A DNA stretch of 32,515 bases from Mesaphorura yosii (lineage: Eukaryota > Arthropoda > Collembola > Poduromorpha > Tullbergiidae), in contig WIXG01000613.1 of NCBI GenBank assembly GCA_009869945.1, forward strand, positions 1 to 32,515, given 5' to 3'. Made by a program: the position numbers and the translations under genes. This document shows positions 828 through 29,668 of the stretch, one piece after another. Below the pieces are notes generated by a model. That model did no database searches and was not told where the DNA came from. It saw only the letters and a program-made list of their open reading frames with translations. The stretch's first letter is position 1. Each line of letters starts with the position of its first letter.

Positions 828-2224
828 CTATGAATTGAATAGAGCGTACAAATTTGCTCTGCCATCATTTAAATCATCGCCTGGAAATGGGTACTCGCTA
901 CTATCTGATTCAGGAAAATCTTGTAATTCAATGAATGACCATTCTTCCTTCGATATACTTTCGCGAATTATGTTGTATAAAATACAGCAGCTGGAAATCC
1001 ACTTACATGCGCGTAGATGACCTTCACTCTTATCAACACGCATTCGTAGCCCCTTTAGACTACCAAAAATCTCTTTTACCATGCCAAAGACGTGTTCTAC
1101 GCAAACTCGATGTTTGGATAATCTTCTGTTAAACTTCTTTCGGCCAGTCACGGTTCCAAATGTAGAATTAGATCTGAAAGCAACCACTTATATTTATGTG
1201 CATTACAGTACAGTAGATTACAGTTTGATTAGCCACATGATATGATTACCTGAAGGGCACAATTACATAATTGGTATTTTTGTATGCTGAGTCTCCACAA
1301 ATCCATTCTCCTTCGGATAGGTACTTGGTAATCGACTGACCAATGCTGCTACTTGCGAAGACTCTGGCATCATGAACGCTACCCGGATATTTCACGAATA
1401 CATTTAAAATTTGTTTCTTGCTGTTAACAATGCATTGCATTTGAATGGCATATCTTTTGTTTCGATTAAAATACGATTCTGGGTCATGCAATGGTTTTTC
1501 TTCTAAAGGAATTTGGCAGCCATCAATAAAGCCGATGCATTTAGGGAGAGTGCGTTCCGTTTCATTACGAATCTCCAACCTTTCTTCAGACGTTGGCCAG
1601 CGAATAAATTTGTCTCCTAAACTCATGACAGCCTGAAATAGGAACTAATTTGAAGATTGAATTACTCAGGATGAACGTATGTCCCTACTTCGATGACCCG
1701 ATCAGTCACTCGATGAACTGTTGATCCATCACCCATTGCAAATTGTCGGGCGACTTTATAAATGGCAGTTGAACTCCCATAATGGCCAAGTCGGTATAAT
1801 GTTAAAGCCAATTGTACAGGGATTGGAAATTGTTGCAGTTCCTTTTGTGTGTGAAAAACTGGATGGTCTTCAATTAGTTTCAGGATTATTTGGAAGTTTT
1901 CTCTGCTTACTCTCAATTCCTGCTTGAAACGGACATCATCTGGAGATGAAATTTTGAAAGTTAAACAAAGTAGCTTAGTAATTTAGAACTAGAGTGGAAA
2001 TTCTACTTACCATACTTCGCCAGTAAATGAATTAAGCAGTCGCTGCCTTTTGGTACTGGAGGAATTGGCTCCACATAAATATCCCAGCTTGAGTCCACAA
2101 CTGTGTCCAAAGCTTCTTCAATATCACTTTCGTTATCACTTTCACTATCTAGCAATTCTAAAAAGCTATCAAAGTCCTTGAATATACTTTCAATTGATAT
2201 TTGTCTCACAGATTTACGTGGCAT
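828..2224 (-). CDS. PIF/Harbinger (HARBI1-like) transposase, intact, four exons
   Basis: Exons on the minus strand are 2224-2011, 1939-1689, 1632-1250 and 1173-828. They join in phase to 397 codons plus stop with no break. The donors are GTAAGT, GTAGGG and GTAATC, and the acceptors are CTCCAG, TTTCAG and TTTCAG. The first exon is acidic. Exon 2 has the helical region typical of the N-terminal part of the family (TLYRLGHYGSS...VARQF). Exons 3-4 carry the DDE_Tnp_4 catalytic core: D192 in FIDGC, the conserved HDAR at 242-245, D269 in GDSAY and E309 in VEHVFG. The enzyme would cut and paste the element, usually into a 3-bp target. Being intact, it may be recently active. The other element end lies left of the window, so the terminal repeats cannot be confirmed. 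The second donor (GTAGGG) is the weakest junction and was chosen because it restores the motif run into FIRWP. Confidence 0.88.
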
Positions 2225-3478: not shown

Positions 3479-3577
3479 TACTATAGCAACGCGATGCTGC
3501 CCCCAGGCAGAATTCAGGAATCGGACACTGCCAGGCTATCCTGTGGTGCTGGATATCAAGTCAGGTGGTCGAACTCC

Positions 3578-3964
3578 GCCCTCACTCGAGCATTAGTTGA
3601 GACAAATTCCTCTTTAGTATCGTTTCTCTGACAACGTTGAATATTAAACGGATCTGCTCCGTGTCAACTGCAGTCGTCCAATGATAATAAAGTTTCTTCT
3701 CAACTCTATTCTGGTTGATGAAGAGGTGGAGGAGGAAGCGCTGGACAAATACAAATATATTAGGGGGCGTCGTGAACGAATCGAGTGGTAGAGCCCCCTA
3801 AGAGGGGCTCCGCCCCTAGAAGCGGGCCGCCTTTGGCGGTAAGACAGTGGAAACCGCCTGCGGCGGAGGAAACTAACACCTGCCCGCCCCCACCCCCGTA
3901 ACCCGCGGGGAAGGCGTCAAAGCTCCCCTTCAATAAAGACGGTGGTTCTGTCTTCGGCGAGGGC
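3578..3964 (-). pseudogene. Broken copy of the last G-alpha12/13 exon
   Basis: Bases 3578-3745 match the C-terminal coding end of the G-alpha12/13 gene (11125-11297), including the same stop codon. Bases 3941-3964 match the first codons of that exon (ALAEDRTT), with a copied acceptor (TTTACAG) beside them. The codons between the two pieces (over 200 bases in the intact exon) are missing and are replaced by repeat element sequence (3762-3940). I count nine base differences in the 3' piece, of which eight are silent and one changes Ser to Asn. The copy is in the same orientation as the intact gene about 7.5 kb away. No other G-alpha exon is seen here. The deletion makes a working subunit impossible unless the gap is a misassembly. 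Confidence 0.85.
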
Positions 3965-4014
3965 CTGTAAAGACATGAGGGGGCGTCGTGGCCCGCCGCT
4001 AGAAGCGGACCGTT
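3762..4014. repeat. Introner-like element, copy A (two pieces, rearranged)
   Basis: Bases 3762-3940 carry one end of the element (GGGGGCGTCGTGAACGAATC), the hairpin arm around CCGCCTTTGGCGG, the GGAAACC spacer and the CCGCCTGCGGCGG arm, then the central C-rich part with AATAAAGAC. Bases 3976-4014 carry a second piece (GGGGGCGTCGTGG, then CCGCTAGAAGCGG) placed exactly where the intron next to the copied G-alpha exon would start. So the duplication took the exon together with an element-filled intron, and a second element piece then came to lie inside the exon. Confidence 0.8.
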
Positions 4015-11128: not shown

Positions 11129-12925
11129 TCACTCGAGCATTAGTTGAGACAAATTCCTCTTTAGTATCGTTTCTCTGACAACATTGAAAATTAAACGGAT
11201 CTGCTCCGTGTCAACTGCAGTAGTCCAATGATAATAGAGTTTCTTCTCCACTCTGTTCTGGCTGATAAAAAGGTGGAGGAGGAAGCGCTGGACGGAGTCG
11301 ACGCTTGGAGTGGCTGCTGCTGCAGGTGATGGAGGTCCAGTTTTAGTGTGTTCGGCAAACTCCGGAAAGTGGAAGCACAAAGACTCTGGACTGGATTCTA
11401 ATTTCTTAACGAGCAGGTCGTACTTATTAAGGAAGAGTATTACAGAGACTTGATTGAAAACTCTGTTGTTGATGAGGAGGCTGAAGACGTTGACTGATTC
11501 CCGTAGACGATTGGTGGTTCTGTCCTCGGCGAGGGCCTGCAAAGATTTTGAGGGAGGCGTCGTGAACGAGTCGAGTGGCGGAGCCCCCCAAAGGGGGGCT
11601 AGACCGCTCGAATCCTTCGCTCCGCGGTAGCAACGTGGCCCGTCGCTAGTAAAGACCGCCTACGGCGGTAAGACACTGGAAACCGCCTGCGGCGGAGAAA
11701 ACTAACTGCTGCCCCCCATCCACCACCCAAACCCGCCGCCCCCGTTATTCCGCGGAGAGGGGTTAAGTCCCCCTTTAATAAACACGGGGGGGGGGGCGGG
11801 ATTCCATTGTCTTACCGCCAAAGGCGGTCCGCTTCTAGCGGCAGGCCACCATAAAATATACTCACCTGATCCCACTCACTCGCCCCCACCATGTAAATCA
11901 TAGCCGTCAACCCCACCTGCGTGAAGCACTCGACCCATTTCGACCTTTGAGTACGCTGCCCCCCAACATCGTAGAATGTAAAAGGCACTTGATTGATGGA
12001 GAGGTGGAGTTGATGCAGTCCTTTTGTAGCACGGCGGAGGAGGAGGATGTCTTTGGTGGAGGGTTCATAGTCCTGCGTTTAGACCAGATTCAGAGACGAT
12101 ACACACTAAAATCAGGCTTTCCGCCTTCGGCGGCGGCCACTCACCTGCGCCGAGATCCTCGGAAGCTCGTCCAAGAACCACTCTACCGAATCCGAGATCT
12201 GTAAAATACTCCTCCTACAAAAGACCTGCTTAATAGAAGAGTCGCTCCATAAGCAAGAGATGGGCTGCGTTAGCTCTGAAAACCTCTCCCGGTCGATCAC
12301 GTTCGGATTGGTGCTGAGGAGAAGGTCGGAGTGGGATTGATTCCCCTCCTGTTCCCATGGAACCCCCAGCTTGGAACGGGCATCGGCGAGGACCCGGATC
12401 CCTTTTTCATAAAAGAGTGAGAGCATATTAAATCAGAGGGTCTCAGTGGGGAGGTTTTGGCCAAGTAGCGAAAAATTTCACCAAATTGGAATTCGCCCAA
12501 TGGATTCGCCCGCTCAATTTGTTAAATACTCACCCTGCACAATATTCGAGTAGACGTTCAGTCTAAACCCTTGCAGGTCCTCCTCTGTGAATCGCACCCC
12601 ATGAATAATCCGTATCTGCTTTATAAAAGTTGACTTGCCCGATTCCCCCGCTCCTAATAATAGGACTTTGACCTGTGGAGAATAAGAGTGTCTTAGGTGG
12701 GGGTTTTGTAGAGGGGGGTCAATTTCCAGAGGAAGATGGCTATAGGTGAGGAGTTTCTATTAGGGGGCAGTCAATTATCAATAAATCACATCTAACCTGC
12801 CTCTTTAGCATCCTCCTCTCCCTTTCTAGCTCCCTGTCTATCGCACGAGAGCGGGCCGACTCCAAATCATAATTATTGGTACGGCAACAGCAGTAACAGG
12901 AGCAGTCCCTCATTATTAAATTCAA
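11129..12925 (-). CDS. GNA13: Heterotrimeric G protein alpha subunit, G12/13 class
   Basis: Five exons on the minus strand (12925-12797, 12672-12534, 12401-12145, 12072-11866, 11536-11129) join to 379 residues, against 377 in human GNA13. All G boxes are present: P-loop GAGESGKST (50-58), switch I RRATKG with Thr191, DVGGQR (210-215, catalytic Gln214), NKYD (281-284) and TTAVDT (349-354). The tail QLMLE resembles the QLMLQ of the G12/13 class. The N-terminus has a Cys cluster (CSCYCCC), suited to palmitoylation and membrane anchoring. The protein would couple receptors to RhoGEF and Rho signalling, as Concertina does in fly gastrulation. A second Met lies four codons in. Intron 4 (11537-11865) is filled by an introner-like element, and intron 3 holds a small GC hairpin next to the donor. 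The gene shares its upstream region with Tweety. Confidence 0.95.
11537..11865. repeat. Introner-like element, copy B, filling G-alpha intron 4
   Basis: The 329-base intron is almost wholly repeat. In gene sense it opens GTGAGTATATTTTATGGTGGC and closes with CACGACGCCTCCCTCAAAATCTTTGCAG-type sequence (the last 16 bases before the exon are CCTCAAAATCTTTGCAG less one). Inside are the shared blocks: CCGCTAGAAGCGG, the ACCGCCTTTGGCGGTAAGAC arm, the GGAAACCGCCTGCGGCGG arm, a C-rich centre with TTTAATAAACACGG, and an AGCCCCCC..GGGGGGCT hairpin. The insertion point is CAG|GCC, phase 0. Relative to the host gene the internal C-rich segment is antisense, opposite to copies C and D. Confidence 0.85.
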
Positions 12926-13570
12926 TCAGTCTTGGCCAGGAGAGTAATAAAGTGGAAGGTCTGGACGGACGGATGACCGACTACATACTACAAATGAGCT
13001 ACACTCCTACATTTGCACCCCGGAAGTGACCAATGCAGGGCAATATTTGAAGCACTGGTCAAGGTGTGGACGGATAAACTAACACAAAAACTACCGCACT
13101 ACTGCTAAAAAATCACCCGCACACTCACATCTCCGATTGTTCAATCAAAGCAATCATCGTCAGCTGTGCTCTGTCCTCCGTAGCGATTTTCGAATCCGGG
13201 CGCCTCCTTTTTCAAAGATTCGGAGAGAGTGTTGAGTTTTGCGCAGGCCTCGAGTTTCTGTAGCACTCTTCTTCATTGATCGCGATCACCGCACCCCGTC
13301 CAGGCAGCAAAAGAGTGTTGTTGGGGTGCGATGCACTGCTACACTGCACTTCTGCCGCTGGAGAAGCTGCGTACAAAAGTTGTTTGTTGACAGCGCGAGT
13401 ACACCGCAGAGAGTGAAAGTACGCTGCTATCACCAAAACAACCCTCTCAAACCGCCGAGGAGCTCTTCATTCTTTAGCTGCTCCACACCACTGCTTCTGG
13501 TCTCCGCCTCCGTTCGCCAGTGGAGTCGGGGTGGGCTGCTGCCATTCTGCTCGAGTCTCCGGGATCAACA
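12926..13570. promoter_or_regulatory. Bidirectional promoter region of G-alpha12/13 and Tweety
   Basis: The 645 bases between the two start codons must hold both 5' leaders and both promoters, since the genes point away from each other. No TATA box is convincing on either strand. The open frames crossing it (13212-13634) have no recognisable content. The arrangement is read from gene positions; transcription starts cannot be placed from sequence alone. Confidence 0.55.
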
Positions 13571-16500
13571 ATGCTCCCCACACACACAAACACCCGCTGG
13601 CTCGTCTCGTTCCTCCACCGGTTCCCCCATTTAAACACAACCCTTAATAGGGTCAACTCTACTTTTGACTCGAGATCTGAATCGTATTTAGAATCTCTCG
13701 GGATACTCGCCTCCGTTCCAGCTCTACTACTAATAACTAGTTTGAGTTTATTATTATTGTACTTGGTGACGAGGTGCTGCGATGGGAATGGGAAGCAGAG
13801 TACTGGTGGGGGGTGTTGTGTTAGATTCGTATTGGTACTGGTTGCAGTTGGGAGCTGGTGAGTTTGCAATTCCTTAACAAAAAAAAACCCATTTAAAGGG
13901 GGGAATGTGTCTAATGATTCTTTATCCCAACAGCCTCTCCTCCTCGTTATCCCTCTACGCCAATGACGACCTGCATAATTCGTTGGCAACAGTCGTCCAA
14001 TCAGTACGCTCAATAGACTTGTATATAAGGCACTTGTCATTGGCGACCCACCAGATGGAATCTTCTCTTGGCTCTACTATACCGATGAATATAAGCGTCT
14101 TGGCGAACGTGTTCGAGAAGCCGTTGGTGAGTGGAGATTAGATTCGCTCGGGGGTTCTTCTAACTGGGGACGGGGGTTTCGGGAGAATTTAGAGACGGGA
14201 GCTCGAAATTTTCGGGACTGAAGGGACGGGGGTCCAACTTCGACATTTATGATTGTGACGGGGCTTGCACACAGGCTCTGAACTTTGGCTCCACCTTCCA
14301 AATTTGAGATTCCCAGGGCTGTGATTCTAATCTCCCCCCATCTTTCCAACAGCTCAACCGGACAGCCTACACGGAGCTCCAAGTCAGCCTAGACTACCTG
14401 CGGAGGAACGCAAGCTGGACCCTGACTAATATCCAACTCTTCAATGACAAGTACTTTGGATTGATTGACTCGAATCAGTATGCAAGACTAGCAGAGTCTA
14501 TTCGGTGGCCTACAACTGTGGCCCTCCAGAGCGTATTTATTGTACTGAATTTGTTGCTACTGTATGCGGTTGGGAGAGGCTCGAGGTGTTCGTACATCAC
14601 GTGAGTTTTGGGTATTTCCATCGCTTTCGATTTCCACCATGGCGATCGGCTTTTTAAAGTTGGCGCGTTCTTTTTATGGTGACGGAGTTACGAATTTCCA
14701 GCACCTCTGCATTTTTTTTGGGAAGGGGCGCCGAATTTGAATTTTACCGGCTGTCTGCTTATGATTTTCTGTGAATTTTTGAATTCGTTTCCCAATGGTT
14801 GCCTTGGTAGCCAGCTTTAAACCCGTCGACAGGGGGTTTCGAGTTTCCCTCTGCATTTACCTCGCATTGAGCGCTGAATTTGAATTTAGCGAGTCTCCAT
14901 GGCGGGGTATTTTTTTCTGTTTCGTAGTTTTTGAACGTGAGCATGATGGCGACCTTGGTACTATTATTGTTGTTCGTTGATTTCCGATTTTTTTCTTACT
15001 CGCCATGGTAACTAGGTTCCATTTTTTTCAATCCTTGGCTCACGATTGAGGTGCTTGATAACCCATTGTTCTCCCCCCAGGTTCTCAGTCCTCGGCCTCC
15101 TCGCCCTAATCATCAACTGGAGCCTCGTCTCTGTGTACTTGCTACTCTCCGTCTCCCTTGCGGATGTGTGCAGTGCACCTTCTCGAATAATTTCCATCGA
15201 GGTCCCACTACTAACAAGCTGCTCACGCGATTTGATAAGTTATTACATCAACTGCGGTGGAGAAACAGGAAGCCAGTCTCCCCTTCTACAAGAGATAGGG
15301 TTCATAGGGGGTTGTGTGGAGGCGACGAGGGTCGTTTTGAAGGAATTAAAGGATGATGCTGTGAGGTTTTACGATGGTGAGAAGGTAAGAAGATATCTTT
15401 GGTGGCTCCGTAACGGAAGACGAGGACCTTGAGCCCCCCCTGAAGGGGGGGCTTGGGGACCTCGCCATCGTCACATCCGTGGTAGCGGTGTGGCCCGCCG
15501 CTAAAGGCGGACCGCCTTTGGCGGAGGAAACTAACACCCGCCCGCCCCCCATCCCCGTAACCCGCGGGGGAAGGGGTCAAAACCTTCCCTGTAATAAAGA
15601 CGCGGGGGGGTACTGTCTTCCGCCGTCGTTTTTTAGCGACGGGCCCCCCGCTCCCGCGGAGCGAAGGATTCGAGAAGCCGAGGCCCCCTTTGGGGGGCTC
15701 CGCCGATCGACTCCTTCACGACGCCCCCCATCTATCTTCACAGGTCACGCCCCCCATCGAGTCAATAATGGACCAGCTCCACTCATTAGACATGACATTA
15801 CAAGACCTCGAGTCATCCGACTGCCAGCAACCTTACAATGAGTACAAGAGGGCTGTTGAAGCTGGATGTGGTGTTGGATTATTCGGACTGGCTTTATTGT
15901 TGGCCTCATCAGCTGTATCAGCTCTATTATTCACTGTGGGGGTTGGATTCGACTCGCATGCGTGGATTTATGGGGTGAGGAGGGGCTCTAGCACGGGAGG
16001 AACACTACAAAGGAACGGCGGCAGCAGTAAAGGGTGAGTTTTGACCGTGTTTTTATGAGTGGGGTTTTTGAAATCGTTCTCCCTCTATCGCACGAGCTTT
16101 CCCAACCCCAACCTATGATGAGTTTTGGGGGGCTAAATTCGAGTCTCCATGGGTGGGGTTTTTTCAAAAGTTTGAGCTTAATTGAGCAGTTTCCATGCAG
16201 TTTCTAAAATCTGCTATCTTCACAGGTCAAAGTCCCATCATCACCAGGAGCCCCAGCACTACCAGCAGCAGCCACCACCTATAGGAGCTGGAAGGAACGG
16301 CCACCAGTACGAGCACGACTCGTTTCTACCACCCCAGCCATACCAACAACAATACCAGCAGCACTACAGCACCCAACCAAGAACCGGGCACCACCACTCA
16401 CAGCATCAGCAGAGAGGAGGTCCTCAGCAGTTAGTGTCACTCTCGACTATAGAAGATTTTATATCATTAGAGGGGGTTTTGAAAGGGGGGTTTTCTTTCT

Positions 16501-16639
16501 GCTCCTTCACAGGTACGGAACAACAGCCAGGCACCATGGCCACTACAACGACCCACCGCCACCGCTTCGACCAAACAATGGCCAGTACGCGACTCTGAGC
16601 AGGGCCTGTAAGACGCTAGAAGCGAACGACTTTTATTAG
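13571..16639 (+). CDS. TTYH: Tweety homolog, five-TM membrane protein
   Basis: Seven exons (13571-13857, 13934-14126, 14353-14600, 15081-15384, 15744-16033, 16226-16429, 16513-16639) join in phase to 550 residues. The N-terminus has the family pattern (W..FLHR.PH.N.TL..VNSTF), then TM segments at about 43-67, 85-104, 212-234, 244-268 and 385-410. The cores RWP before TM3 and GLLALIINW in TM4, followed by ADVC, are typical of Tweety. The end YATLSRACKTLEANDFY looks like the conserved C-terminus. Family members were proposed as calcium- or volume-regulated anion channels; later structures suggest a lipid-handling role. Exon 6 codes a His/Gln/Tyr-rich tail that is probably disordered. Intron 4 is an introner-like element. 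The exon 4 donor was set at GAGAAG|GTAAGA because an earlier GTGAGA breaks the frame. The exon 6 donor (GTTAGT) is weak. Confidence 0.93.
15385..15743. repeat. Introner-like element, copy C, filling Tweety intron 4
   Basis: The 359-base intron begins GTAAGAAGATATCTTTGGTG and ends CACGACGCCCCCCATCTATCTTCACAG (read in two parts: the CACGACGCCCCCC end of the element, then a pyrimidine tract and CACAG). Inside are TGAGCCCCCCCTGAAGGGGG as a hairpin, CCGCCGCTAAAGGCGG, GGAGGAAACTAACACCCGCC, a C-rich centre with GTAATAAAGACGCGG, GGAGCGAAGGATTCGAG and GGCTCCGCCGATCGACTCC. The insertion point is AAG|GTC, phase 0. The copy lies in a plus-strand gene, whereas B and D lie in minus-strand genes. Confidence 0.85.
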
Positions 16640-17274
16640 CTGGACCAGGCCAGGGATTTAGAAGATGGAACCTCGTGGCTACGGGACACTGGAAACTATA
16701 CGCGAGTGGGTGGGCTGCTCGCCCTTGGAAACCCCCTCAGCAACTATGCAAACACGGGATCTCAAAGGAAACGGGGGGAATCTCGAAAACGGAGAATCGC
16801 AGTTATACATAGTTGCCTAGGAATCTTAAGGTCTAGTCTACAGCTGCCAAAAATACAAACGATAAGTTTAAGCACACTGAAGATGTGCAATAAGGCTACT
16901 ATTTGATCACGTTCTCACTTTTTCCACGTCGTTAGTTTTCGCGCGCGCTCTCCAATTGCTCACTTTCTCGATAGCTGCTTAGAGAATCTTTTGTAATGGT
17001 ATTTAGTCAGATATTCGCTTGTCTCTTGCTGCGTACTCGAATAAAAATGGAGACTTTTTCCCGCCACACTTAGAAACAAGGTCGATTTATTGTCCAACGA
17101 GGCGCATATGGAAAACGCGTACAAAAAAAAGTTGCATACAAAAATGTTGTGTGTGCTATGGAAACGTAGGGGAAAATAAATTATGAAAAGGAGGGCGGAG
17201 TAAATTACGGAGCGGAGTTGTATTTTACAGTGTGAGGGAGTTCTCCGATGGCTGATAAGCGGAGGCTGTCCTCC
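16640..17274. other. Convergent 3' ends of Tweety and the claudin-like gene
   Basis: No coding gene. The likely poly(A) signal of Tweety is AATAAA at 17040-17045 on the plus strand. That of the claudin-like gene is AATAAA on the minus strand, read as TTTATT at 17086-17091. With cleavage some 15-30 bases past each, the two 3' untranslated regions would abut or overlap slightly. An ATTAAA-like or other upstream signal for Tweety is not obvious. Confidence 0.55.
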
Positions 17275-18856
17275 TCAGTAGCTGTACGGGTACTGTCCCT
17301 GGCCCTGCACAGGCCCCCCGTAATAGGGCCCTCCATACCCATAAGCTGCGGCCTTCTGCTGTTGCTGCTGTTGTTGTGGGTAGACTGCGGGAGAAAATTT
17401 AAAAAAAAAACAGAAAATTGTTAATGGCAACGGACTAAACTCTACAGAATCTCAATTTTAAATTTCATAAAAATTCCTCACCCGTCATCAAATACTGCTG
17501 CTGGCTCCCTACACCATTCTCCCTGTAAAGACAACTGGCCGCTCCAGCGAATAAAGTCGCTGCTACCAAACTCAATCCCACACTACACCAGGCGAGGTAG
17601 AAACTCCAATCTAGTTGTTTGTAGCTCAACTCCCTTAATTGTGGCAACCACCCCCTGTAGTAGTTCTCTGTAGATAGTTTCTCCTGCTCGTAGTACTCAA
17701 CCCCATGCCAGAGGCCCATGGAGCCGGCGGAGAGGAGGCCTGTGAAATTTAAGGAGGGGAAATTACACTGGTGGCTGGATTGCAGAGTGGAGCACCATGG
17801 CAGCTAATGCAACCTCTCAAAGAGAGTCGCCAAACCACCACTTTTAAATAGCAACTCACAAGAAACGAGAACGAGTATCGCCGTTGTTGTGATGTTTCCA
17901 GATGACCGTCTCCAGCACCCCGCCACCCCAGTCCAGAAGGCGAGGAATAAGAAGAGGAATGAGAGGATGAAGAGGGCGACCATCGCCCTCGCCATGTCTG
18001 CAACGTGCACCCTCTTTTGTTAAATAAATCTCTAATATAAATCTCCAGGAAACACTTACGCAACCGCCCCATCTCATCCTGAGAGAAGCTAGAAGTCAAG
18101 TTCTCAGAGTCCGGGACGTAGTAGTCAATGTCCATGCAGTAGGTTTCGACGGGGGATAGGTAGATGAGGGAGCCTGCAAAGATTTTGAGGGGGGCGTCGT
18201 GAACGAGTCGAGCGGTGGAGCCACGGCCCCAAAGGGGCCGGAGGCTAGACCGCCTTTGGCGGTAAGACACTGGAAACCGCCTGCGGCGGAAGACACTAAC
18301 CCCCGACCCCATCCGCCCGTCTTTATTAAAAGGGAGCTTATGACCCCTCCCCTCTCGGGTTACGGGGATGGGGGCCGGCGGGGGTATGGGTCTTCTGCCG
18401 CAGGCGGTTTCCAGTGTCTTACCGCCAAAGGCGGTCCGCTTCTAGCGGCGGGCCACGCCGCTACCGCGGAGCGAAGGATTCGAGCGGCTTAGCCCCCCTT
18501 TGGGGGGCTCGCCCACTCGATTCGTTCACGACGCCACCATAGATATACTCACCTAAGCTCGGCTTCCCTCCCGCCCCAAAGCACACCCTCCACAGACCCT
18601 TAGTCCGGGAAAAGTAGATTGGATTCGTATCAAAGTCCTCTGGCAACGAGTCCGACTCCCTCGTCAGCCTCTCCTGGAATCAAACATTCTTCAGAGACGT
18701 GCTCGTCGCTGCTAAAACAGTCGCACTCACCCTCAACCTCTCCCTCTTCACATCTATGCGGAGCCAGTTGTCTGTAGAAAAGGCAATCGCCAGCAGCGCC
18801 ACCGAAAGAACAGCAGCCACCGTCCCAATGGACAAAGTAACAGCGGAGCAGGGCAT
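17275..18856 (-). CDS. Claudin/PMP22-superfamily four-TM protein
   Basis: Six exons on the minus strand (18856-18731, 18673-18553, 18173-18060, 17997-17860, 17739-17482, 17384-17275) give 288 residues. The claudin signature W..GLW..C..C is visible in the first outer loop: Trp31, GLW at 68-70, Cys73 and Cys95. Four hydrophobic segments lie at about 4-28, 126-148, 153-176 and 212-238. The tail is Gln/Tyr/Gly-rich and ends in a short YSY sequence, not a clear PDZ ligand. The loop between TM1 and GLW is longer than in classical claudins, so it may belong to the wider clc-like, stargazin-like or arthropod septate-junction branch. It would act in the plasma membrane at junctions or as a channel auxiliary subunit. 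The exon 4 acceptor (TTGCAG|ACATGG) was chosen because the nearer AG sites break the frame. Intron 2 is an introner-like element. Confidence 0.85.
18174..18552. repeat. Introner-like element, copy D, filling claudin-like intron 2
   Basis: This is the most complete copy: a 379-base intron with clear terminal inverted repeats. The left end GGGGCGTCGTGAACGAGTCG is matched by CGATTCGTTCACGACGCC on the right. A nearly perfect inner inverted repeat of about 45 bases follows (18252-18297 against 18388-18434, both with CCGCCTTTGGCGG, GGTAAGACACTGGAAACC and CCGCCTGCGGCGG or complements). In gene sense it opens GTGAGTATATCTATGGTGGC and closes CCCCTCAAAATCTTTGCAG, the same acceptor end as copy B. The insertion point is TTAG|GCT, phase 1, a different phase from B and C. 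Confidence 0.88.
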
Positions 18857-21800
18857 CTTTGTGACTCTCTGGGCTTGTCAATCGCTCTCTTTTGTATGGT
18901 CTGAACGGCCCTTCGACTACACTCGCTGGATTCGGCCGCTTCTGGCTCCCGAATACCCTCACGCCTGCTGTCCACTTCTTCGCTTCCGTAACCGTGTACT
19001 GTTGACCTCTCTCTCTCTGACGACCGCTGCAGTAGTGAAGACCTGTTTTCTCCGACTACCTGCTCCCTGAGCGCATATTGCCGAGAAGAAACTGGTCTCT
19101 TTGCATTCTCCTCAGGAGCAGCGTTCTCTTCAACGAAAGGAATTCGCTGCCCTGAGGGCACTCTCGTCTTACGAGGAGCATAGTAGTTCTTCACCTTTCT
19201 GCATTACTCGAAAGTGGCCAACAATGCACTCGGTTGCTGTTCTCGCCGCCTGCCGGGAGGTGGCGTGCGGTCAGCGCTCCGCGCCCCACTTTCGCTCCCT
19301 CCTTGCAAGAGCGGTCCTCGGGTGTGGAGCGCATGCAGAGGGTGCCGAGGAAACTGGGTTCCTAAAACCAGCTGCGCAACAGAAGAGGAAATAGGAGAGT
19401 TGTGTTTATTGCTAGATGTGATCAAATACCAATAAATATGACGAAAGGCACGTACAGGCTCAATGAAACTAAGCTAAAACTGTGTAAAAACTAAAACGGT
19501 CCAAGACCTAAAGAGAGTTTGAGACTAAAGTTTGGACCCTTGATTCTGATTAGGAAATCAGCCGCACAAGAGGAGGGTCCCCATTGACATTACGGGCACG
19601 ATCCTGAAATTCGGCATAATTTCAAAAGTGACAGCAGCAGCAGAGATGCGACAGCCGACAACACCCACCACGACGCGGCGGAGAGTAGCCTGTGGAAAGT
19701 AGGAGGGGCCCCCAACAACTCCCAGAATAGACGTGTAGTAGCCACCGCAAAAGCACGGCTTCGAAGCCGAGTCCCCCGAGCTGCGTTTTTTAAGGGGGGG
19801 GTTACTCATGTGGAGGCCGCCGCAGACTTTACTGTAGTGGTGAAGAGTTGATTGGCGGTCGCCCAATGACATGCCCCCCCCCCCAGCGTTAGAAGAGGAA
19901 CCTGAGAATTTGCGGTTTTTACCCGGCGGAGGTTCAGTTACCATTGAAACCAGGGCCTGCTCGGCAGGGTAGGCAATTGGGTTTAACCGTCGGAAAGGCC
20001 CCGTTTCCGCATTCGGAGGATGTCCATTGACATGGTTACGGTTGTATTATTAGTGGTGGGTGGGCAAAGACCGGTTGACCCACCGACTGAGCACTGCTTT
20101 CGCACTGCGGAGGGCCTGCAAACGCTCAACCCTCTCCGGTCTCACCCGGTCCACCCCCGAGAAACACCTGCGCCTGGCTTATTTCAGCGGAGGAAAATTA
20201 CTGCGGCGGGGCAGCTTACATGCGACCGAGGGCAGCAAATGTACAGTACCCGCCTGAGGGATTGCTGGTGGGAGGCGTCCCCCCTCGGTCGCTCCCCCCG
20301 ACTCCAACCCACCGGCTGCTCCTTCATCGGTGGCTGCTCCCAGGCGCTCCCCGCTCCGGAAGAATCAGCTTTCACAATGATCTCAAGAGTGTATTCGACT
20401 TGAATCAGATCATCGTGGAGGCCGGTTCCCCGTCGCTGCTCCTTCCCTGCACCCTCCTGCTCACTGCACGCTACTCCTTCCAAGTGCTCCGGCGCTCCTT
20501 CTGTAGTCACTCTTGGAAAAGACGGCCAGTCTGAGGAGGTTTGGAGGAGTGCGCCCGGCGCACTCGGAGTAAACGAGAAACTGCTGCCAGAGTGGTGTGG
20601 ATGAATGAAATGCAGCGCACTGCTCGGCAGCATTCCTTTCCACGTTGGCACTTTTTTCAGCACTCATGGTGATACTCTCTCGTGTGTGCTCCACTCTACA
20701 TGCACGCTCGTGCAGCAGCAGCAGCAGTAACACACTTCGGCATGGCACTCCCAGATTTTTACAGCAACAGCGAGCGTAGAGCGTCACCGTGTACACCCTT
20801 TCCTATAGCAGTACTCGCTACAGAGTATAGGCCCATGTACCATGTTGATGGGCTCATTCGATGCTGTGTGCTCTTTTTGAAAGGGGGCGAGAGAGAAGAC
20901 GGTGCTCGTACGCTCGAGAGTGGAGAATGAATGAATGAGAGTCTCTCGTAAGGAGACGGTGGAGAGGACATTGACACGGTGAAGGTGGTCGCCGTAAGAA
21001 AGCCGGTCAGCCGCCGTCGGGATGATGATGACGCTGCTGACCTGGCGTCATGGTGATGGACCTCGGGAGGCGCCCCCTCAAAAAAAAATTGGGCACGAAT
21101 GCACGAGAATGAATGGGCACACAAAACAATTGGACCTGGAAAAAGTGCAACTTGCTGGAGAAACGCCCCAGACCCTCGCACCGGATACCAGGGGGCACAG
21201 CTAATTTTTAATTGTAGTCAGAGTCTGCGGAAATTTGTCAACAAACATTTCGACCACTGCTGCCATACAGCATGAAATGTGTTGTATCTTTTTAACTAGA
21301 CAACCGTGATAAAATTCTGATCATTGGAAGTTCGGCAAAAGGCAGGAATTTTTTTTTTTGAGAATTTGTGTCACCGGGAACTTTTTCTTGGATTCTGGGG
21401 CCTTTAAAATTCTGGTCATTATTCTCTTTCGGACTGTTGGCAAATTTTTTTCCCTGACTTAAAAAAACAAATTCAACAATTGTCGTGGTAACCTCAAAAA
21501 AAAATTTCCCTCACGCCCTCCGCGCATGGGGATCACTCGAGAACCAAACAATTTTTAAAAAAACAATTCCAAAATTGTCATGGTAACCGGAAAAAAACTC
21601 GCCCGTAATTGATACGCGAAAGAAAACCATGGTGATAAGGTGGAATGAAGCGCGCATAAAACTCATCTCGGCTCTCCCGTTTATTCGAAGCTGTGTAGGT
21701 CGCGCTGAACAATTCGCTTTATGATTTTTGAAAGTGCGCGCTGGAAATTCGAGAAACAAACGAAAACGAGGGAAATCAAATTCTTTAAACAATTGCGATC

Positions 21801-21875
21801 TTATTAAATCTAGTCCGCTGCTGTCCGCTCCATCCTCCGGTCTTCAAAAACTCCGCCTCGACTGCTGCGCCCCCC
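18857..21875. other. GC-rich unassigned stretch between two minus-strand genes
   Basis: It contains the leader and promoter of the claudin-like gene, the 3' end of the B-box-cyclophilin gene (minus AATAAA as TTTATT at 21680-21685) and 19.4-21.2 kb in which several frames of 80-160 codons stay open on both strands, as expected from GC content. A minus-strand gene may exist here: an ATG at 20667, a frame 20663-20184 and a frame to a stop at 19558 after good acceptors (CTTTCCACAG ending near 19689, AATTTCAG near 19605). I could not join them in phase and recognise no domain. AATAAA on both strands near 19403-19434 hints at transcript ends there. Confidence 0.4.
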
Positions 21876-23960
21876 TCACACCAACTCCCCACACCTCCTC
21901 ACAACCACCCTCTTTGTAGGGTTCCCACTCGCATCGCCACATTCAGCAACCCTCTCAACAACTTCAATCCCTTCTAAAACATGGCCGAAAATCCCCGTAA
22001 ATCCCGGCATGTCCTGCAGTATAATCCTGAATTGTGATCCAACCAATCCTTTACTGTCGTGGCGCTTTTGCGTTCTTCTCATTCCCAATGCTCCCCTCGT
22101 TGCTGGGAGACGGGTGTCTTCGGGCATGAATAAACCTGATGGGAAGATGGAATGCCCTCCCCTCCCGTTCTGGTGCTCAAAGTCACCGGTGATGACCTGC
22201 GGGAGTTGTAAAGGGGGAATTATAAAGGGGGGAATTATAAAAGGGGGGATTTATTAGTCGGAATTAGAGGGGGAATTATAAAAGTTATTTTAGTCAAGGG
22301 AACCACAAAATGCCATGGAAACGGGGAAAAATTTAGCACCATGGCAACCAGCCAAAAGAAAACCACGCTTTTTCTTTTAATTGCTTACCGACTCCCCTCT
22401 CCAGCACTGAAACACGACACACCCCTCGAACCCGTACCCCCGATCCCCTCTCACTAAAGAGTGGAAGTTCTCGCACATCCTCGGCGCAACGTCAGGCCTC
22501 GTTTCTATGACAACCCTCCCTAGGCAACCGACTCCAATTATTTCCATGTCGAAGAAGAAGCGGGGCCCGAGGACGGGAGCTTTCTTCAGGCTCAGGCTTG
22601 AAGACGATGTCAGTTTAGCGGTGGTGAACTGGTGGATTAACTGTAGCTGTTCGATGTTGTTGCAGGTGGAGGGTTGGAGTAAAAGGGGGTGGGCCTGCTG
22701 TAGTAAATTTTGGAGGGCGGAGCGACGGTGTTGGAGGCTCGAGTGTAGTTGTAGGGGGCGCTGGTGGAAGGTGCTGTGCTGGGCTTGCAGTAAAGAGTGG
22801 ATCTGCAATGAGAATTTAAGGGGTTAGTGTCATGGGAATAAAGGAGGGTTAATTTTCTTTAACTGGATTTTTTCCCGGGAAACTTTTTTTTGGCGAATTT
22901 TTAGACGGGGGAACTTTTTTCAGGAGAAATTTTCGCGGGGGCACTTGTTCTGATTGGGAAGTCCTACGATTTGGGGCTGCTGTTTTTGCCGGGGAATTTG
23001 ATTTTTTTTGTTCGGCGAATTTTTTCGGGGGTGCTTTAATTTAGGGGGGGGGGGGATGTTTTAATTTTTTGTTGACTAATTTTTTCCCGGTGACGTTGAG
23101 AAAATATGAGTTACTGGGTACTTTGTATTTTTTTCATGGAGAATTCCTTTGGGCTATTTGGCGACTACTTTTCTCTGACTTGTCATTTCTTTAAGGACGT
23201 TATCTCCGCCGCAGGCGGTCCGCTCTTAACGACGCCATCCCCATAAAATTCTTACCTCTCCCAATTCCCCCGCTCCAACCAACCCCCCTCCCTGAATCAA
23301 AACCCCCTCCAATTCTTCCTTAACACTTTGAAGGGCATCAATCAGTTTGAGCATCAGGTCCTGCTGCTTGCGTTCGAAGTTGTACACTTCTGACAATAAG
23401 TTCCCAACGGAGCGGGACTCGGAGTCGATGGCTGATTGGATTGAAGATGAGGCGTCCGAGATAGGGAGGAGTGAGTGGGTTGTTATGGCAGCGGTGGTGG
23501 ACTCGCCGTTCTGGAGCGCTGGAGTGGTTGTTGGGTGGTCCTGCAAAGAGAACATTTTAAGGGTCCGCTCACTCGCCCTCCGCGCCAAGGCGCGGTCATC
23601 ACTTGTGGACCATAAAAATTGGAAAAAATACTTTAAGAATTGCCGTGGTAACCCAAAAAAACAAAAATAAGTCAAGAATTGTCATGGTAATTGGAAAAAA
23701 ACTTCACTCGCCCTTCGCGCTTGCGCGCAGTGGCGTCACTTGTGGACCATAAAAATTGGAAGATAATCAAGAATTGCCGTTGTAACCCGAAGACAATATA
23801 ATTTTTAAAAAAACAATTTAGGTATTGCTGGGGGAACACGAAAAATACAAAACAATAAAAAAAAACAATAAAAATCATGAATTGCCGTCATAACCCTAAA
23901 GACAAAGTTTAAAAGAAAATACAAGAGTTGACTTGGTGCCGACCAAATAATTGTCATAGT
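21476..23960. repeat. Dispersed ATTGTCATGGTAACC motif and short hairpin repeats
   Basis: Introns and flanks of the B-box-cyclophilin gene hold many copies of a short motif close to AATTGTCATGGTAACC (21476-21493, 21574-21588, 23638-23653, 23677-23690, 23773-23790, 23946-23954 in part). They alternate with CTCGCCCTCCGCGC-type hairpins (about 21513-21537, 23570-23605, 23705-23745). The same pair of modules recurs at 27.2-27.6 kb and 29.9-30.9 kb. The spacing is irregular, so these are dispersed repeats and not a satellite. Confidence 0.7.
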
Positions 23961-24239
23961 AACCCCCAAAAACCCCCTTCTTGCTCGGCGTACTGCACTC
24001 ACCTTCAAACACCCCGCCTGACAAACCCCCCTGCAACAACTCCCGCACCAGTAAACCAACTGTTGCCCGGGGTGCAGGTCGCAGTACTCAATTTCATCCA
24101 GCTTCCAGCTATTAATCAGGCTCGATAATTCGTCCTCATTGTTGCTCCAGCACGATTTCGATAATGGATTTTGCTGGGGTTGGAGCCCGGATTTCAATAG
24201 TGTTGAGTACGGCAGCTGCTGGACGGAGAGGGAACCCAT
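21876..24239 (-). CDS. B-box, coiled-coil and cyclophilin-like protein (TRIM-Cyp-like layout)
   Basis: Four exons on the minus strand (24239-24003, 23540-23256, 22802-22389, 22196-21876), all phase 0, make 418 residues. Residues 53-81 form a B-box zinc finger (CDLHPG...YWCGSCCRGVCQAGC, then DH across the first splice). A Ser/Thr-rich linker and a helical region with heptad-like spacing follow at about 120-240. Residues 255-418 are a cyclophilin fold: RVVIETRPDVAPRMCENF, YGFEGCVVFQCW, GDFEHQNGRGG, GSQFRIIL and the ending GNPTKRVVVRRCGEL. Most residues needed for proline isomerisation are changed: the FHR arginine, the FMCQGG block, the MANAG block, the second Phe of GSQFF, and the Trp and His of WLDGKH. 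It is therefore probably a binding module. No RING domain is found upstream. The role is unknown; the layout recalls primate TRIMCyp restriction factors. Confidence 0.85.
23193..23255. repeat. Partial introner-like element at a splice donor (copy E)
   Basis: In gene sense, intron 2 of the B-box-cyclophilin gene opens GTAAGAATTTTATGGGGATG, then GGCGTCGTTAAGAGCGGACC and GCCTGCGGCGGAG. These are the terminal GGCGTCGT block, the GCGGACC block and the CCGCCTGCGGCGG arm of the element. The rest of this 453-base intron is T/G-rich and not related, so this looks like a decayed or truncated copy with only its donor end left. Confidence 0.65.
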
Positions 24240-25239
24240 TCTTCAAGAAGTGAAGTTGTGGTGGAGTCACTTTCTTGATGTCAGAGAGGCTGTAGGAAGG
24301 AAGGGAGGGTTAAAATTCAGGGGCCCACCGATTCCCGCCGCCCGGCACACCGGCTCCACACTCACCCTCTCTTTGCTCGACGTTGCTATGGCGCGCCCAC
24401 TCGTCAAATCCCTGCTTCCAGTGCGTAGAGTCGGCTGTTGCTATGACGAAGGAGAAGACGAGGCCTTTTCCACTTAATTTGCGACTTTAACCTTTGACTT
24501 TCAATTAATTCAGAGTCTTGGTGGACTGAACGCTCGCTGCAAGAATCGGAACCGCACACTCCTGTACAGTGCACACGCTTTACTCAGAGTGCGGGGGGAC
24601 GCTATACTGCTGTTGCTTCTGCTGTAGTGGCGTGGCGTAGCGTGCACGCGGGCTCGGCTTTCAATGATGGCTTCCCTCCGCTGCTGTACGCTTTATGCAT
24701 GGGAGAGCAGCACGCCTTCCCACACACGCACGTACAAGAATGCATAAGAGTGGAGAAAGACTGTACGAGCGTGGATGACGTCACCCCGGCCGCTCTTTCT
24801 CTGCTCCTTTGTGTGCACCGAGAGACTCGAGACTTGCTCCTCGTCTTCGCCTCTTCCTTGTCCTGTGCTGCCGGTCCAGGCGGGAGTCGAGATCCCAAGG
24901 AATCGAGCGCTGGAGCAAGGAAGCTGGAGGTTACCATGGGACGCTGGGCGGTTGATGCGGAAGGGGTGCCGGTTGGAAAAACGAGAGACACCCTTCAAAA
25001 TGTACGTGCACGCCTCGGTGCACTTTTATTCCCCACCGCTCCCGATAATACACACCCCCCAGAAATATTCACACAACTTTCAGTATTACAATCATTATAA
25101 TGGTAATTTTACGTACAAAAAGTCCCCCCGAAAGTTAAAGTTCGCGCCACCCACGAGTCTACTATTCCCTGTACAAAAGAGTAGTCCCCGCCCGACGAGT
25201 CGCGGGAGAATCGGTAATTGAATTTATATTATCCTCCGG
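24240..25239. other. Leader of the B-box-cyclophilin gene and 3' end of the HhH gene
   Basis: A minus-strand acceptor (TTCCTACAG) ends at about 24293, so the B-box-cyclophilin start codon probably lies in a second or later exon with a leader intron upstream. A minus-strand AATAAA (TTTATT at 25025-25030) lies about 210 bases past the HhH stop and is its likely poly(A) signal. The frames of 100-157 codons between 24602 and 25221 stay open on both strands and have no recognisable content. Confidence 0.5.
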
Positions 25240-27676
25240 CTACAGTATCTTGATCTTCTTGGGGGCGGAGGGACCGCTGTACGTGTTATCTCCCTCCACG
25301 AACCCGTCCAGGGAGGTGGAGCAGTCTTCTTCTCCGGGAAGGAGCGGGCCGCCACTCACGGTGGTGGCTGAAGGAGGCTCCGACTCCCTGCTGTCCGTGT
25401 TATCATTGCTGTTCTCATACAGGACGAGGCTCGAAGAACTCGAGTCGTCCTGCTGCTGCTGAACAGAGGAGAGCTGCTCCTGCTGCTGGAATCCACTGCT
25501 GCTGTTCTCATGGTGCTCCTGCTGCTCCTGGGGAGGGTCGGGCTGGAGGGCTTCCTGGAAGGGGGCGGGCTCTCCGTCGCCATAGAGCTGATCGGACTGA
25601 TGGAGCTCGAACCCGTTCTCCCCCGCTGCTCCTGCAGCAGAGACTGCCGTGCCCCCCGCGTGGTTATACTCCTCCACTTCCTCTTCTTCGTGGTGGTCTT
25701 GGTGGGGCTCATCGTAATTAACGTGTGTGGGACGGTCCTCCTCCTCGTTGTCTTGCTCCTCCCCTCCATCTCCTGCTTCCGCCGCCGCCCCATTCTTGCC
25801 CCCCACCACTCCGGAGCCTGGTTCAGGAACCCCCGCTAACAACTCTGGTTTATGAGAGAGTAGAACGTGGTGCGTCCAGAGCACTAACTCGATACGGTGG
25901 GGGCTCCACTCTGGACCTAGCTTGGCCCGGGCCTACGGAAGAGAGAAGGAGTTTAGTCACCTCCTCGGAATATAAAACGCACCCCACTGGACAACCGCCC
26001 AGACTTTGAAAAGTTTGGAAACTTTTCTCGACAGTTCGGAGTTGCTAAGGTGTTTTGGGCTGTTTGGCCAATTTTTCGAAGGGACTTTGGTTTGAGAATC
26101 TTGGGACTCTGTTTTTTCTCATCATTGGGAAAGTCTTAATCCCCCGGGACTTTGGAAAGAAATCTCGATTCTAGCGTTTTTCTGAGCACTAGGAATGCCT
26201 TAATAAATCTGCCTCTGGCGAATTTTACGAGGGGACTTTGAAAAAAATCGGGATTCTGAGCTGTTTGGTTTTCTGATCATTGTGAAAGCCTTAATAAATC
26301 TGTGCTTGGTGAGTTTTTAGATGGGACTTTGAAAAACAAATGAGTTTCTGGGGACTTGGGTTTTCTGATCATTGGGAAAGTCTTCACAATTATGACTGAC
26401 TAAATTTCCTTCTCCGAGCTCTGTCACCTCCCCCGGCTGTAACGAATTGGGTGTCCGGCGCCAGTAGTTTTCTCCGCCACCAGAGATATCTTCTTACCTG
26501 CCCGATCGCCCTCATCATCTCCCCGTACTCCTGCACCGTGTAGTCAATGCCTTCTATCTCCGGCACAGCAGCAAGGCACTCATCCGCCATGAAGGCGGCC
26601 CGATCCGGGGCGGCGGCTGTTAACAGGGCGGAGGCGGTGGCCGGGCCGATGCCCTGCAAATAAAACACGGTCGGGTTCAAAGAGCCATGGTGACAATTCA
26701 AGTTTGAGGGATTCAAAGAGGTCACTCTTAAAAAAGCGGGAAAGTTTAAACTTACCTTCAGATTGCAAAGATAGTTAATCGCAGCCGTCAGATCGTCTTT
26801 CTTGAACAAAGCACGAAATGCTTTTCTAGACTCCTGCTGGACGACCCTCGGGGAGTTCATGGTAACCAACTCTTTAAGGCGTGGGCGGAACTTGCCCCTC
26901 TACGAGAGGGAAAGGAGCATAAATTAGCAAAGGGGACAGAGCGGGTAGAAATTGAACGAAGACCACCAAACTTAAAGACTCACCGCCAACTTCCACCGCA
27001 TCGTATTAACTAGCTCCTCATGTATAATATGGTAGTCGGGGCTCCTTGACGCAATCTTCTTTGGCAGTTCGTTCTGCATCCACTCATCGAGTTTTATGAG
27101 CTCTTGTGGCTTCTTAGATTTCGACTCGGCCTTCAATTGGAGGGCGGTGGGGTACAGTGTGCAGAGGTGGCTATAAATAATAGTTTTGGGGGGCATTACT
27201 CGGGGACTCTCTCTCAAATTGTTGAGGCGTGTCCCTGCGCACGCGAAGGGCGAGTGAGGAATTCGGGTCAATCATTTTTGATAGGTACCCTCACTCGCCC
27301 TGCGCGCAGAAGTGGCATCACTCGGGGAGCAAACAATTAAAATTTAAAAAGAAAAACAAGCAATTCAACAATTGCCGTGGTAAGAAAAAAAAATTACCCC
27401 TCATTCGCCCTCCGCGCAGGGCGCGGGAGGGGCATCACTCGGGGACCAAAAAATTCAAAAATTGTTAAGATTATCCAAAAAAAATTCCTCACTCGCCCTC
27501 CGCGCAAGCGCGCGGCATCACTCGGGGACACTTTAAAGGGGAGAGAGTAGAGAGAAAAAATAATCCCTCACTCGCCCCTCCGCGCTATCGTGCGCAGGGG
27601 CATCACTCGGTCTATTAACTCACCTAAACTGTGCCGGGCACGCCCTAGCTAGTAAAGCCGCCGTGGTAATCTCCAT
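25240..27676 (-). CDS. Helix-hairpin-helix protein with acidic, Gln-rich tail; family unknown
   Basis: Five exons on the minus strand (27676-27624, 27170-26984, 26899-26756, 26653-26498, 25932-25240) join in phase to 410 residues. The first 128 residues are helical with a basic conserved-looking run RWKLARGKFRPRL across the exon 2-3 junction. Exon 4 starts with GIGPATASALL, a classic helix-hairpin-helix motif that binds the DNA backbone in repair glycosylases and related proteins, followed by DRAAFMADE. From about residue 210 the protein is disordered, rich in E, D, Q, S and H, and ends in a basic PKKIKIL that could act as a nuclear signal. No catalytic residues of a glycosylase were identified, so a DNA-binding nuclear role is inferred only. 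Intron 1 carries four short hairpin repeats. Intron 4 opens with GTAAGAAGATATCTCTGGTG, like introner copy C. Confidence 0.8.
27230..27612. repeat. Cluster of four short GC hairpin repeats in HhH intron 1
   Basis: Four copies of a module lie at about 27288-27328, 27398-27446, 27485-27529 and 27564-27610. Each begins CTCACTCGCCC, has a self-complementary core (for example CGCCCCTCCGCGC..GCGCAGGGGC) and ends GGCATCACTCGG. Between them are A-rich spacers with ATTGCCGTGGTAAG. Other copies are at 28546-28580, 28610-28640 and 30733-30880. The last copy runs almost into the donor site of exon 1. Confidence 0.75.
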
Positions 27677-29668
27677 CCTTGTGATATTTTATTAGTGGGC
27701 TGTGGCGGTTGCCCAGACGATGATGATCGCGAGTCTCTTTAAAGGAAGAGCAATGGAGGAGCTCAGGCTGCTTCTCAGCGGAGATGAGCTTCACCCAAGC
27801 AGCGTGTCTCGGACAGTGGACAATAGCAAACAACTTCGGCTCACAGACTCCCGTCGTCAGAAAAGTTCGGAGACAGAGTTTCTTGGATTTCAGAGAATTT
27901 AATAAGAGTCACTCGGTTCACTCTCTCTCCTCAGCACTTATTCGTCGTCCTCGTCAAAATGGAGTTTCACTCTCTCTGCTACTCCTGCTTCGGCTGCTGT
28001 CTTTGCTCTCTTTTGTTCTGTCTGCTGCCTGCTGCTCTCATACATTGTGAGACGGGGGTCGACTCTCTCCTTCCTCACTCCACACTCGCTCGCCGCAGTC
28101 GACTGCTGCTCTCGCCTATGCCGTAGCGGCCATCTGCCGGCTCCCACTTTTGGCGCATGAAACTCTTTGTCTCTCTCCGACATGAAAACCCCCCACCGCC
28201 CAAGACCACCACTGCGAGGAGGCAGATAAGTAGACAGGCTTTCGAATCCCATTTTGACCTATCAGGAATCCGTTGGCTTATCAGTATTGCAGTATTGAGT
28301 TTGCACTGATTTCAGAGGTGAAACGAATTAAAACCACTATCAAAGTTCACGAGCTGCAGGGTGAAGGCGACGACCGCTCGCGAGCACAGAAGTGGTCAGA
28401 CTGAAGGCAAATTTTCAGCCTGCAGCTGGCAAGTGCAGCGAAGGAACGCGAATGCCAATTGAAGTCTTACGAAATTGGAGAAACTTCAAACAAGAATTCC
28501 TTCGCATTTTTGCCACGGACACACGGAAATATTTTTGGAGGGCACATTCGCCCTTCGCGCAGCGGCATCACTCTGTGACGCTTTATATTATGGGGGGGGG
28601 GGGAACCTTCGCCCCTCCGCGCTACCGTTCGCAGGGGAATAGCTCGAGTAAATCAACATCAGCTGACTTTAGTGTACTTTTATTCATCTCAAAACCGAAA
28701 GTTGCACAAAGTCTTCCAAAACGATTTCACAATCCCCAAAATTCGCCTCGCAAATCACGCCCGACCGAGACCCGTCTCGACATCCAATTTAGTGCATAAT
28801 ACTTAATTAAATATACAGTGTGTGCGGTTTTCAAAATTGTACCGCTATTTCTAACTTAAAATGCGCCGTGTGTACAAATTCTGCGTGATTCAAATCTAAG
28901 TGCTCATAAGCATGAGCACAATTTCGCACAATACAGCTCGAATTACACTGACGATAATTACTGCTCACAATAGGAATGTGTGAAATACACATGAAAATTT
29001 AAGGGCATGGACCACCAAAACCCATGGGCCTTAACTCTAGTTTACAATTTTTCACGAATTTTACCGAAAATAGCAGATTTTATAGACACAAGTTGTCAGG
29101 GTGACACGCGCAAAGCCCTCCACCTATTCTAGTCTTCTAATTTTCTATAATTTGACTTCTGACGACTGCTCTTCCTACACATTACAATTTTTTATTATTA
29201 TCGTATTTCAAGTCTGTCAATTCCACCACTTTTCTTTCCTTCACTATTACGCTCTTCAAGCTTCATGACAACTCACCTGATTGGCTAATTTTACTAAATC
29301 CTACGATTTTATTGTTATGACGTCCTTCAGCTCGTTTTACCATCTTATTCTTATTATGGATGGCAGAATTTGACTCTCGAGATGTGAAATTACTCGTAAT
29401 CAAGAACTCGGAACAGAAATCACAATCGCCACTTAAAATACATAACCTAACCTTCCGCACTAATAGGAAGTGAGGATAGTGCTAGGGGTGAGCGTGTGGA
29501 AGCGATCACAAATTCTCAGAAACCATAACAATAGAGGGTGAAAATTAATATTTAATACAGCTTGCAAACTTGGAATTTGTAGCTAGTTTAACACGTAACA
29601 ATTTAATTTGTATAATGTCCTTTTGACAATTTAGCCTGTTGTTTACCCGTCTGCTCTGCACTGCTCCC
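27677..29668. other. Unassigned region between the HhH gene and Bax inhibitor-1
   Basis: It holds the promoter side of the HhH gene and the 3' side of Bax inhibitor-1 (ATTAAA-like sites on the minus strand, read as TTTAAT near 29551 and 29602). A minus-strand frame at 28252-27938 codes 104 residues with a very charged end (FDEDDE) and a plausible ATG context; it could be a small gene but has no recognisable family. The frame at 28392-28799 on the plus strand has no recognisable content. Two degenerate hairpin repeats lie at 28546-28640. Confidence 0.35.

Follow-up and report, generated by a model that had tools for sequence, protein, structure and literature searches.

Introns in three neighbouring genes of the collembolan Mesaphorura yosii are probably insertions of one foldback element behaving as an introner

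The window, as the whole stretch analysed is called here, is a 32,515-nucleotide contig (WIXG01000613.1, below C613) of the Mesaphorura yosii assembly GCA_009869945.1, which comprises 93,006,257 bases in 1127 contigs. The cuticle domain PF00379, typical of arthropods, has 66 matches in the assembly, whereas the 14 prokaryotes used as controls gave none; a search of the assembly for COX1 was negative. The window carries genes for a G-alpha 12/13-like protein, Tweety and a claudin-like protein, and one intron of each (329, 359 and 379 nt respectively, all GT-AG) consists of the same foldback element (Table 1). The original prediction had described the three introns in this way, and their coordinates, GT/AG ends and shared blocks were all confirmed. 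The intron phases (0, 0 and 1) also proved correct, with the reading frames of Tweety and G-alpha read, and so did the final CCTCAAAATCTTTGCAG common to the G-alpha and claudin introns and the TGGTGGC shortly 3' of the GT in all three. The three introns are very probably insertions of one non-autonomous foldback DNA transposon behaving as an introner. The data support classing the elements as introners in the sense of Gozashti et al. 2022.

Terminal inverted repeats (TIRs), hairpin blocks and core blocks are common to the three introns, in direct or inverted order. The TIRs predicted for every copy are clear at both ends of the claudin copy, which is nearly complete and the most complete in the window, but in the G-alpha and Tweety copies one end has been lost or has diverged. 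The G-alpha copy has a TIR at the acceptor end only; its donor-side arm is lost and the alignment of its arms is no better than shuffled. In the Tweety copy the donor-side TIR has diverged. Folding of the intron RNAs relative to shuffled sequences gave z values of -7.3 (G-alpha), -8.4 (Tweety) and -15.9 (claudin-like). The predicted fold of the claudin copy joins the intron ends, and a hairpin of this kind may aid splicing.

The 20-base TIR, with up to three mismatches, was found at 65 sites in the 93 Mb versus 8 for the reversed control, and the inner motif at 54 sites versus 1. Such excesses over the reversed controls exclude chance. The outer TIR alone gave 11 sites (control: 0), 9 of which are on contigs already known, while C12 and C44 were not. 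Combining TIR sites with a similarity search gave 64 clusters, spread over 28 contigs. Among the 76 loci examined, some of which overlap, 70 distinct ends were recognised (up to five mismatches); once the five closer to the inner motif are set aside, 65 TIR ends in 54 copies remain. Seven three-mismatch TIR sites (C61, C180, C266, C431, C456, C636, C1074) and eleven inner-motif sites (C123, C288, C327:71523, C391:48057, C463:45524, C489, C522:30371, C705, C800 twice, C1120) were left out of the count, and the element pieces without a TIR end at loci L062, L065 and L066 were excluded from the 54. Because some clusters and the eleven inner-motif sites lay outside the loci examined, 54 is a lower bound. 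A viral origin of the element was considered and rejected, as the exact TIR has no match in IMG/VR.

Most copies sit at splice sites, not in intergenic DNA or in the middle of older introns: 43 of 54 were placed there by eye (45 by a loose automatic rule), and on copy location the introner claim of the original prediction therefore stands. The placed copies provide 51 ends, 25 donors and 26 acceptors. The matches at C613:3766 and C624:30373 passed the loose rule yet were dropped from the 43, and the count also leaves aside C554:9863, a possible GC donor. Under the strict rule a splice-like signal was present at 38 of 70 ends versus 4.1% of 16,844 random positions, and under the loose rule at 53 of 65 ends versus 16.4% of 25,068. 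Both ends could be set for eleven introns, of 88-412 nt; in these the element spans GT to AG and the shared sequence reaches both exon boundaries. Two of these introns, L037 (C795:21064) and L063 (C795:2741), are in apparent paralogues near both ends of one contig, and the others are in unrelated proteins. The paralogous introns share the insertion point and measure 115 and 188 nt; their interior varies and their splice ends are kept.

The structure of the element ends suggests how the splice sites could arise. The TIR runs to the insertion point and reads roughly T-A-(A/C)-G-A-A-G-A-T-A-G-A-T-GGGG-GGCGTCGTGAACGA. One element end, after the target G, gives G|TAAGAAG, a 5' splice site. The other end, as complement, gives CCCCATCTATCTTC(G/T)TA|G, a pyrimidine tract followed by a 3' splice site (TA/CA|G) whose last G fits the target. 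Past the anchored GT and AG, donors continue as (GT)A-A-G-A-A and acceptors, on the opposite strand, as (CT)(A/G)-(C/T)-G-A-A. Donors and reversed acceptors were compared position by position: G occurs at position 5 in 22/25 and 16/26, A at position 6 in 15/25 and 21/26, and A at position 7 in 15/25 and 15/26, and G at positions 17 and 18 is found in most ends of both kinds. Position 4 distinguishes them, being A in 22/25 donors and not A in 25/26 acceptors. The purine-rich string is seen, for example, in the acceptor CTACGAAGATAGATGG (C85) and the donor GTAAGAAGATGGATGAGG (C391:22911), and many ends have GATAGATGGGG or similar, followed by the GGCGTC of the TIR. Since both kinds of end share this string, one and the same sequence is a donor on one strand and a pyrimidine tract with acceptor on the other.

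Exons end in G in 22/25 cases (AG in 16/25) and start with G in 23/26 (GT in 16/26), though the placement score favoured G on both exon sides and, because the ends were aligned on GT/AG, the G/T at positions 1-2 and some of the exon G's follow from the procedure. GG is present on both sides in 10 of the 11 introns, the exception being Rab11 (CG/GG). This pattern fits a 2-nt duplication, yet splicing selects the same letters, and the duplication is thus only putative. A mariner-type TA target duplication was rejected: with it, splicing would take out coding bases and put the exons out of frame, whereas protein lengths are unchanged. In 8 of the 11 introns the alignment of the TIR arms is better than that of 200 shuffled versions. 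The asymmetric core is sense in four and antisense in four of the eight copies in which it can be read (three and four of seven at no more than one mismatch; the weakest, C638:4110, has two). Its occurrence in both orientations favours DNA transposition over reverse splicing.

In five host genes (G-alpha, SMUG1, RPA1, MKK4-like and Rab11) the hand-joined protein aligns to a solved structure with no gap at the junction. Insertion and splicing thus appear to leave protein length unchanged, which is consistent with de novo intron creation by insertion. Exons beside other copies match GH18, STAT, synapsin, PurA, NIF phosphatase, SHMT, LUC7, NKAIN, protein kinase, guanidino kinase and SURF4, so the copies occupy unrelated genes; for STAT the join may use a wrong donor and its acceptor exon alone counts. 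KCC, MTCH2-like, CTDSP, serine protease and Rab2 were named by eye. A Pfam search of the KCC, serine protease and SMUG1 pieces gave no match, and SMUG1 was named by structure alignment instead.

In the favoured mechanism, a transposase would move the element into exon DNA at or near AG|GT, possibly with a 2-nt GG target duplication. The target G would complete one TIR end as the 5' splice site, the opposite end would act as the 3' splice site, and splicing would exactly restore the reading frame. As the two ends are largely alike in sequence, the element should yield a spliceable intron whichever way round it inserts. A wider proposal can be made only tentatively, with the balance leaning somewhat against it: an ambidextrous arthropod introner, frame-neutral in either orientation, whose activity is confined to one small compartment (possibly one chromosome or block) turned intron-rich. 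The window also has broken PIF/Harbinger-like transposase pieces near the rearranged copy (828-1982, minus strand; PF13359 DDE_Tnp_4 on 828-1187, the rest by eye), with no sign that they serve the TIR of the element, although no search aimed at a transposase flanked by this TIR was made.

Several observations weigh against insertion of a foldback transposon as the source of the introns. Splicing of the copies is a prediction from open reading frames and protein alignments free of gaps. None of the eleven introns shows a target duplication of more than 2 nt, and in three of them (G-alpha, RPA1, LUC7) the arms pair no better than shuffled. Eleven of the 54 copies are unplaced (one is the rearranged copy at 3766; another, on C624, is probably a chance match), and the scoring took GT donors and AG acceptors only, with the ends aligned on them. 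The introns of SURF4 and SHMT have recognised element only next to the donor, with different sequence from there to the acceptor; in these two cases the element may have entered an intron that already existed. Confinement of the copies to about 0.6% of the assembly is unexplained by transposition alone. Some of these points would suit other origins. Copying of introns as RNA by reverse splicing, which has been proposed for fungal introners and in which the inverted repeats would reflect hairpin structure only, agrees with the AG|G sites, the exact intron boundaries, the lack of a clear target-site duplication (TSD) and the strong RNA hairpins. It expects one fixed orientation, however, and the core is found equally often in both; nor does it predict a string common to donor and acceptor ends. 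This origin is very improbable. It is scarcely credible that a gene-biased miniature inverted-repeat transposable element entered pre-existing introns near their ends, by chance or preference: SURF4, SHMT and the eleven copies off splice sites point that way, but in eleven introns the element fills the whole length between GT and AG, its TIR extends to the splice sites, and the signal seen at 38 of 70 ends is far rarer at random positions.

The confinement itself raises the question of a second organism. Of the 43 placed copies, 39 are on 11 contigs (C327, C355, C379, C391, C463, C522, C554, C613, C638, C795, C823), which make up about 0.6% of the assembly if C554 is taken as ~39 kb from its rank (the other ten total ~505 kb). 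Copy-rich loci also have their own tetranucleotide signature, to which the element itself contributes. The introners could be real and these contigs could come from a co-sequenced second animal, not from the main arthropod; both the confinement and the signature would agree, and the few genes read on the copy-rich contigs look more intron-dense than the few polymerase-subunit genes read elsewhere in the assembly. Three genes outside the copy-rich contigs might be taken to belong to another genome: on C1105 a divergent RPA1-like gene (26 bits; by eye), on C224 a Rab11-like gene (61-73%) and on C219 a divergent second RPB2. Copy loci and 17 other loci have no repeat in common and gave four matches, all to a Rab gene, in a comparison of little power. 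Against this origin, SURF4 (profile positions 12-267) was found in a single place in the 93 Mb, on a copy-bearing contig, and parts of SMUG1, synapsin and PURA, as well as the ordinary RPA1, only on such contigs; STAT is found there and, with one match of 26 bits, on C7. Elsewhere the assembly has a single ordinary gene each for RPB2, RPC2 and RPA2 (named by eye), so the main genome is not badly incomplete. On the 267-kb contig C67, an SHMT gene with a copy is flanked by stretches of ordinary signature; both signatures meet in the window itself, where the change falls at ~10.5 kb. Because SURF4 and the ordinary RPA1 were found only on copy-bearing contigs, a second organism is unlikely, and one genome with a copy-rich compartment is the most likely arrangement. 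The divergent RPA1-like gene on C1105 (L079) stands beside a possible Ulp1-like protease gene and repeats and is perhaps part of a mobile element (by eye). The second RPB2-like gene on C219 (L098) is very divergent, and the normal RPB2 is on C500.

As to age, the original prediction took three copies in 7 kb to suggest recent bursts. BLAST pieces aligned with the G-alpha copy show identities of mostly 71-94%, with 96% in two short pieces, and the local density mirrors the copy-rich 0.6% of the assembly, so a recent burst is unsupported. G-alpha and its fragment at 3573-4012, and likewise L037 and L063, appear to share insertions that predate the duplication.

Table 1. Element copies, terminal inverted repeats and host genes in the window
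Feature	Position	Strand	Remarks
G-alpha 12/13-like intron, phase 0, between DQ and ALAED	11537..11865	-	core antisense; GTGAGT...TTTGCAG; hand-joined protein gapless at junction
Tweety intron, phase 0	15385..15743	+	core sense; GTAAGA...TTCACAG; PF04906 match of hand-joined protein spans junction
Claudin-like intron, phase 1	18174..18552	-	both TIRs, core sense; GTGAGT...TTTGCAG; PF13903 on hand-joined protein
TIR	11556..11575	+	matches GGCGTCGTGAACGAGTCGAG exactly
TIR	18193..18212	+	exact match
TIR	18516..18535	-	1 mismatch
TIR	15706..15725	-	2 mismatches
Host gene, G-alpha 12/13-like	11130..12913	-	ends approximate, by eye
Host gene, Tweety	13782..16639	+	PF04906; ends approximate; exon 1-2 join out of frame
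Host gene, claudin/PMP22-like	17280..18858	-	PF13903; ends approximate, by eye
Partial duplicate of G-alpha 3' exon region, with rearranged element copy (3766-4012; TIR 3766-3785)	3573..4012
Element remnant with donor-like end (GTAAGAATTTTATGGGGATGGCGTCG... on minus strand)	23206..23255	-	by eye; putative splice role

Other features of the window were also recorded. The Tweety protein had no match in the protein collection, and an Rfam scan of the window at gathering scores gave none. The AT-rich left part encodes a single-exon protein of 1460 aa with a NACHT domain (PF05729; 5152-9534, plus strand), and STAND-like proteins were recognised by eye on C67 (L086) and C85 (L091). A second dispersed repeat family, with units like AATTGTCATGGTAACC and CTCACTCGCCCTCCGCGC (D1, D6, D9), is scattered over 21453-30870 and lies partly within an apparent intron at ~23544-24002 (minus strand).

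Introners are a leading candidate source of large-scale intron gain. Frame-neutral insertion can be studied cleanly in the dozens of readable copies that conserved genes carry here (Rab11, RPA1, SMUG1, MKK4-like), and a TIR that is donor or acceptor depending on the strand offers a simple, testable rule for turning a transposon into an intron. If the confinement to less than 1% of the assembly is real, regions that gain introns could be compared with quiet ones within a single genome. A literature search for introners in either orientation, or in both orientations with TIRs, found no paper in the collection searched, which does not show that the arrangement is unpublished. Non-autonomous TIR elements that make introns were reportedly described by Huff et al. 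2016 in Aureococcus and Micromonas.

The copepod Eurytemora affinis is, like the present host, an arthropod with many lineage-specific introns (PMC5714493). GA or GG donors occur in about 12% of its introns, whereas such donors were outside the scoring used here; the word stem 'transpos' is absent from the main text of that article. The introners of Amoebophrya (PMC7789003, from the part available) resemble the element in having inverted repeats that pair the intron ends and predicted hairpins. They differ in their non-canonical splice sites and direct repeats of 3-5 nt; the copies described here have GT/AG ends, the only ones scored. In the accessible sections of PMC9860276 (Gozashti et al. 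2022), introners are defined by similarity to both boundaries, with pairs in opposite orientation allowed, and are reported from only two animal groups. Copepods are named, so the arthropod host may belong to a known group. The same sections give TSDs of 3-9 bp for some earlier introner families, in contrast to at most 2 nt (GG) here, and mention no confinement comparable to the ~0.6% of the assembly that holds the present copies. The Acanthoeca sp. family (Fig. 2D of that article), compared by description only, is like the window element in that similar introns are found in unrelated genes, their likeness extends to the splice boundaries at both ends, and the TIRs lack a clear TSD.

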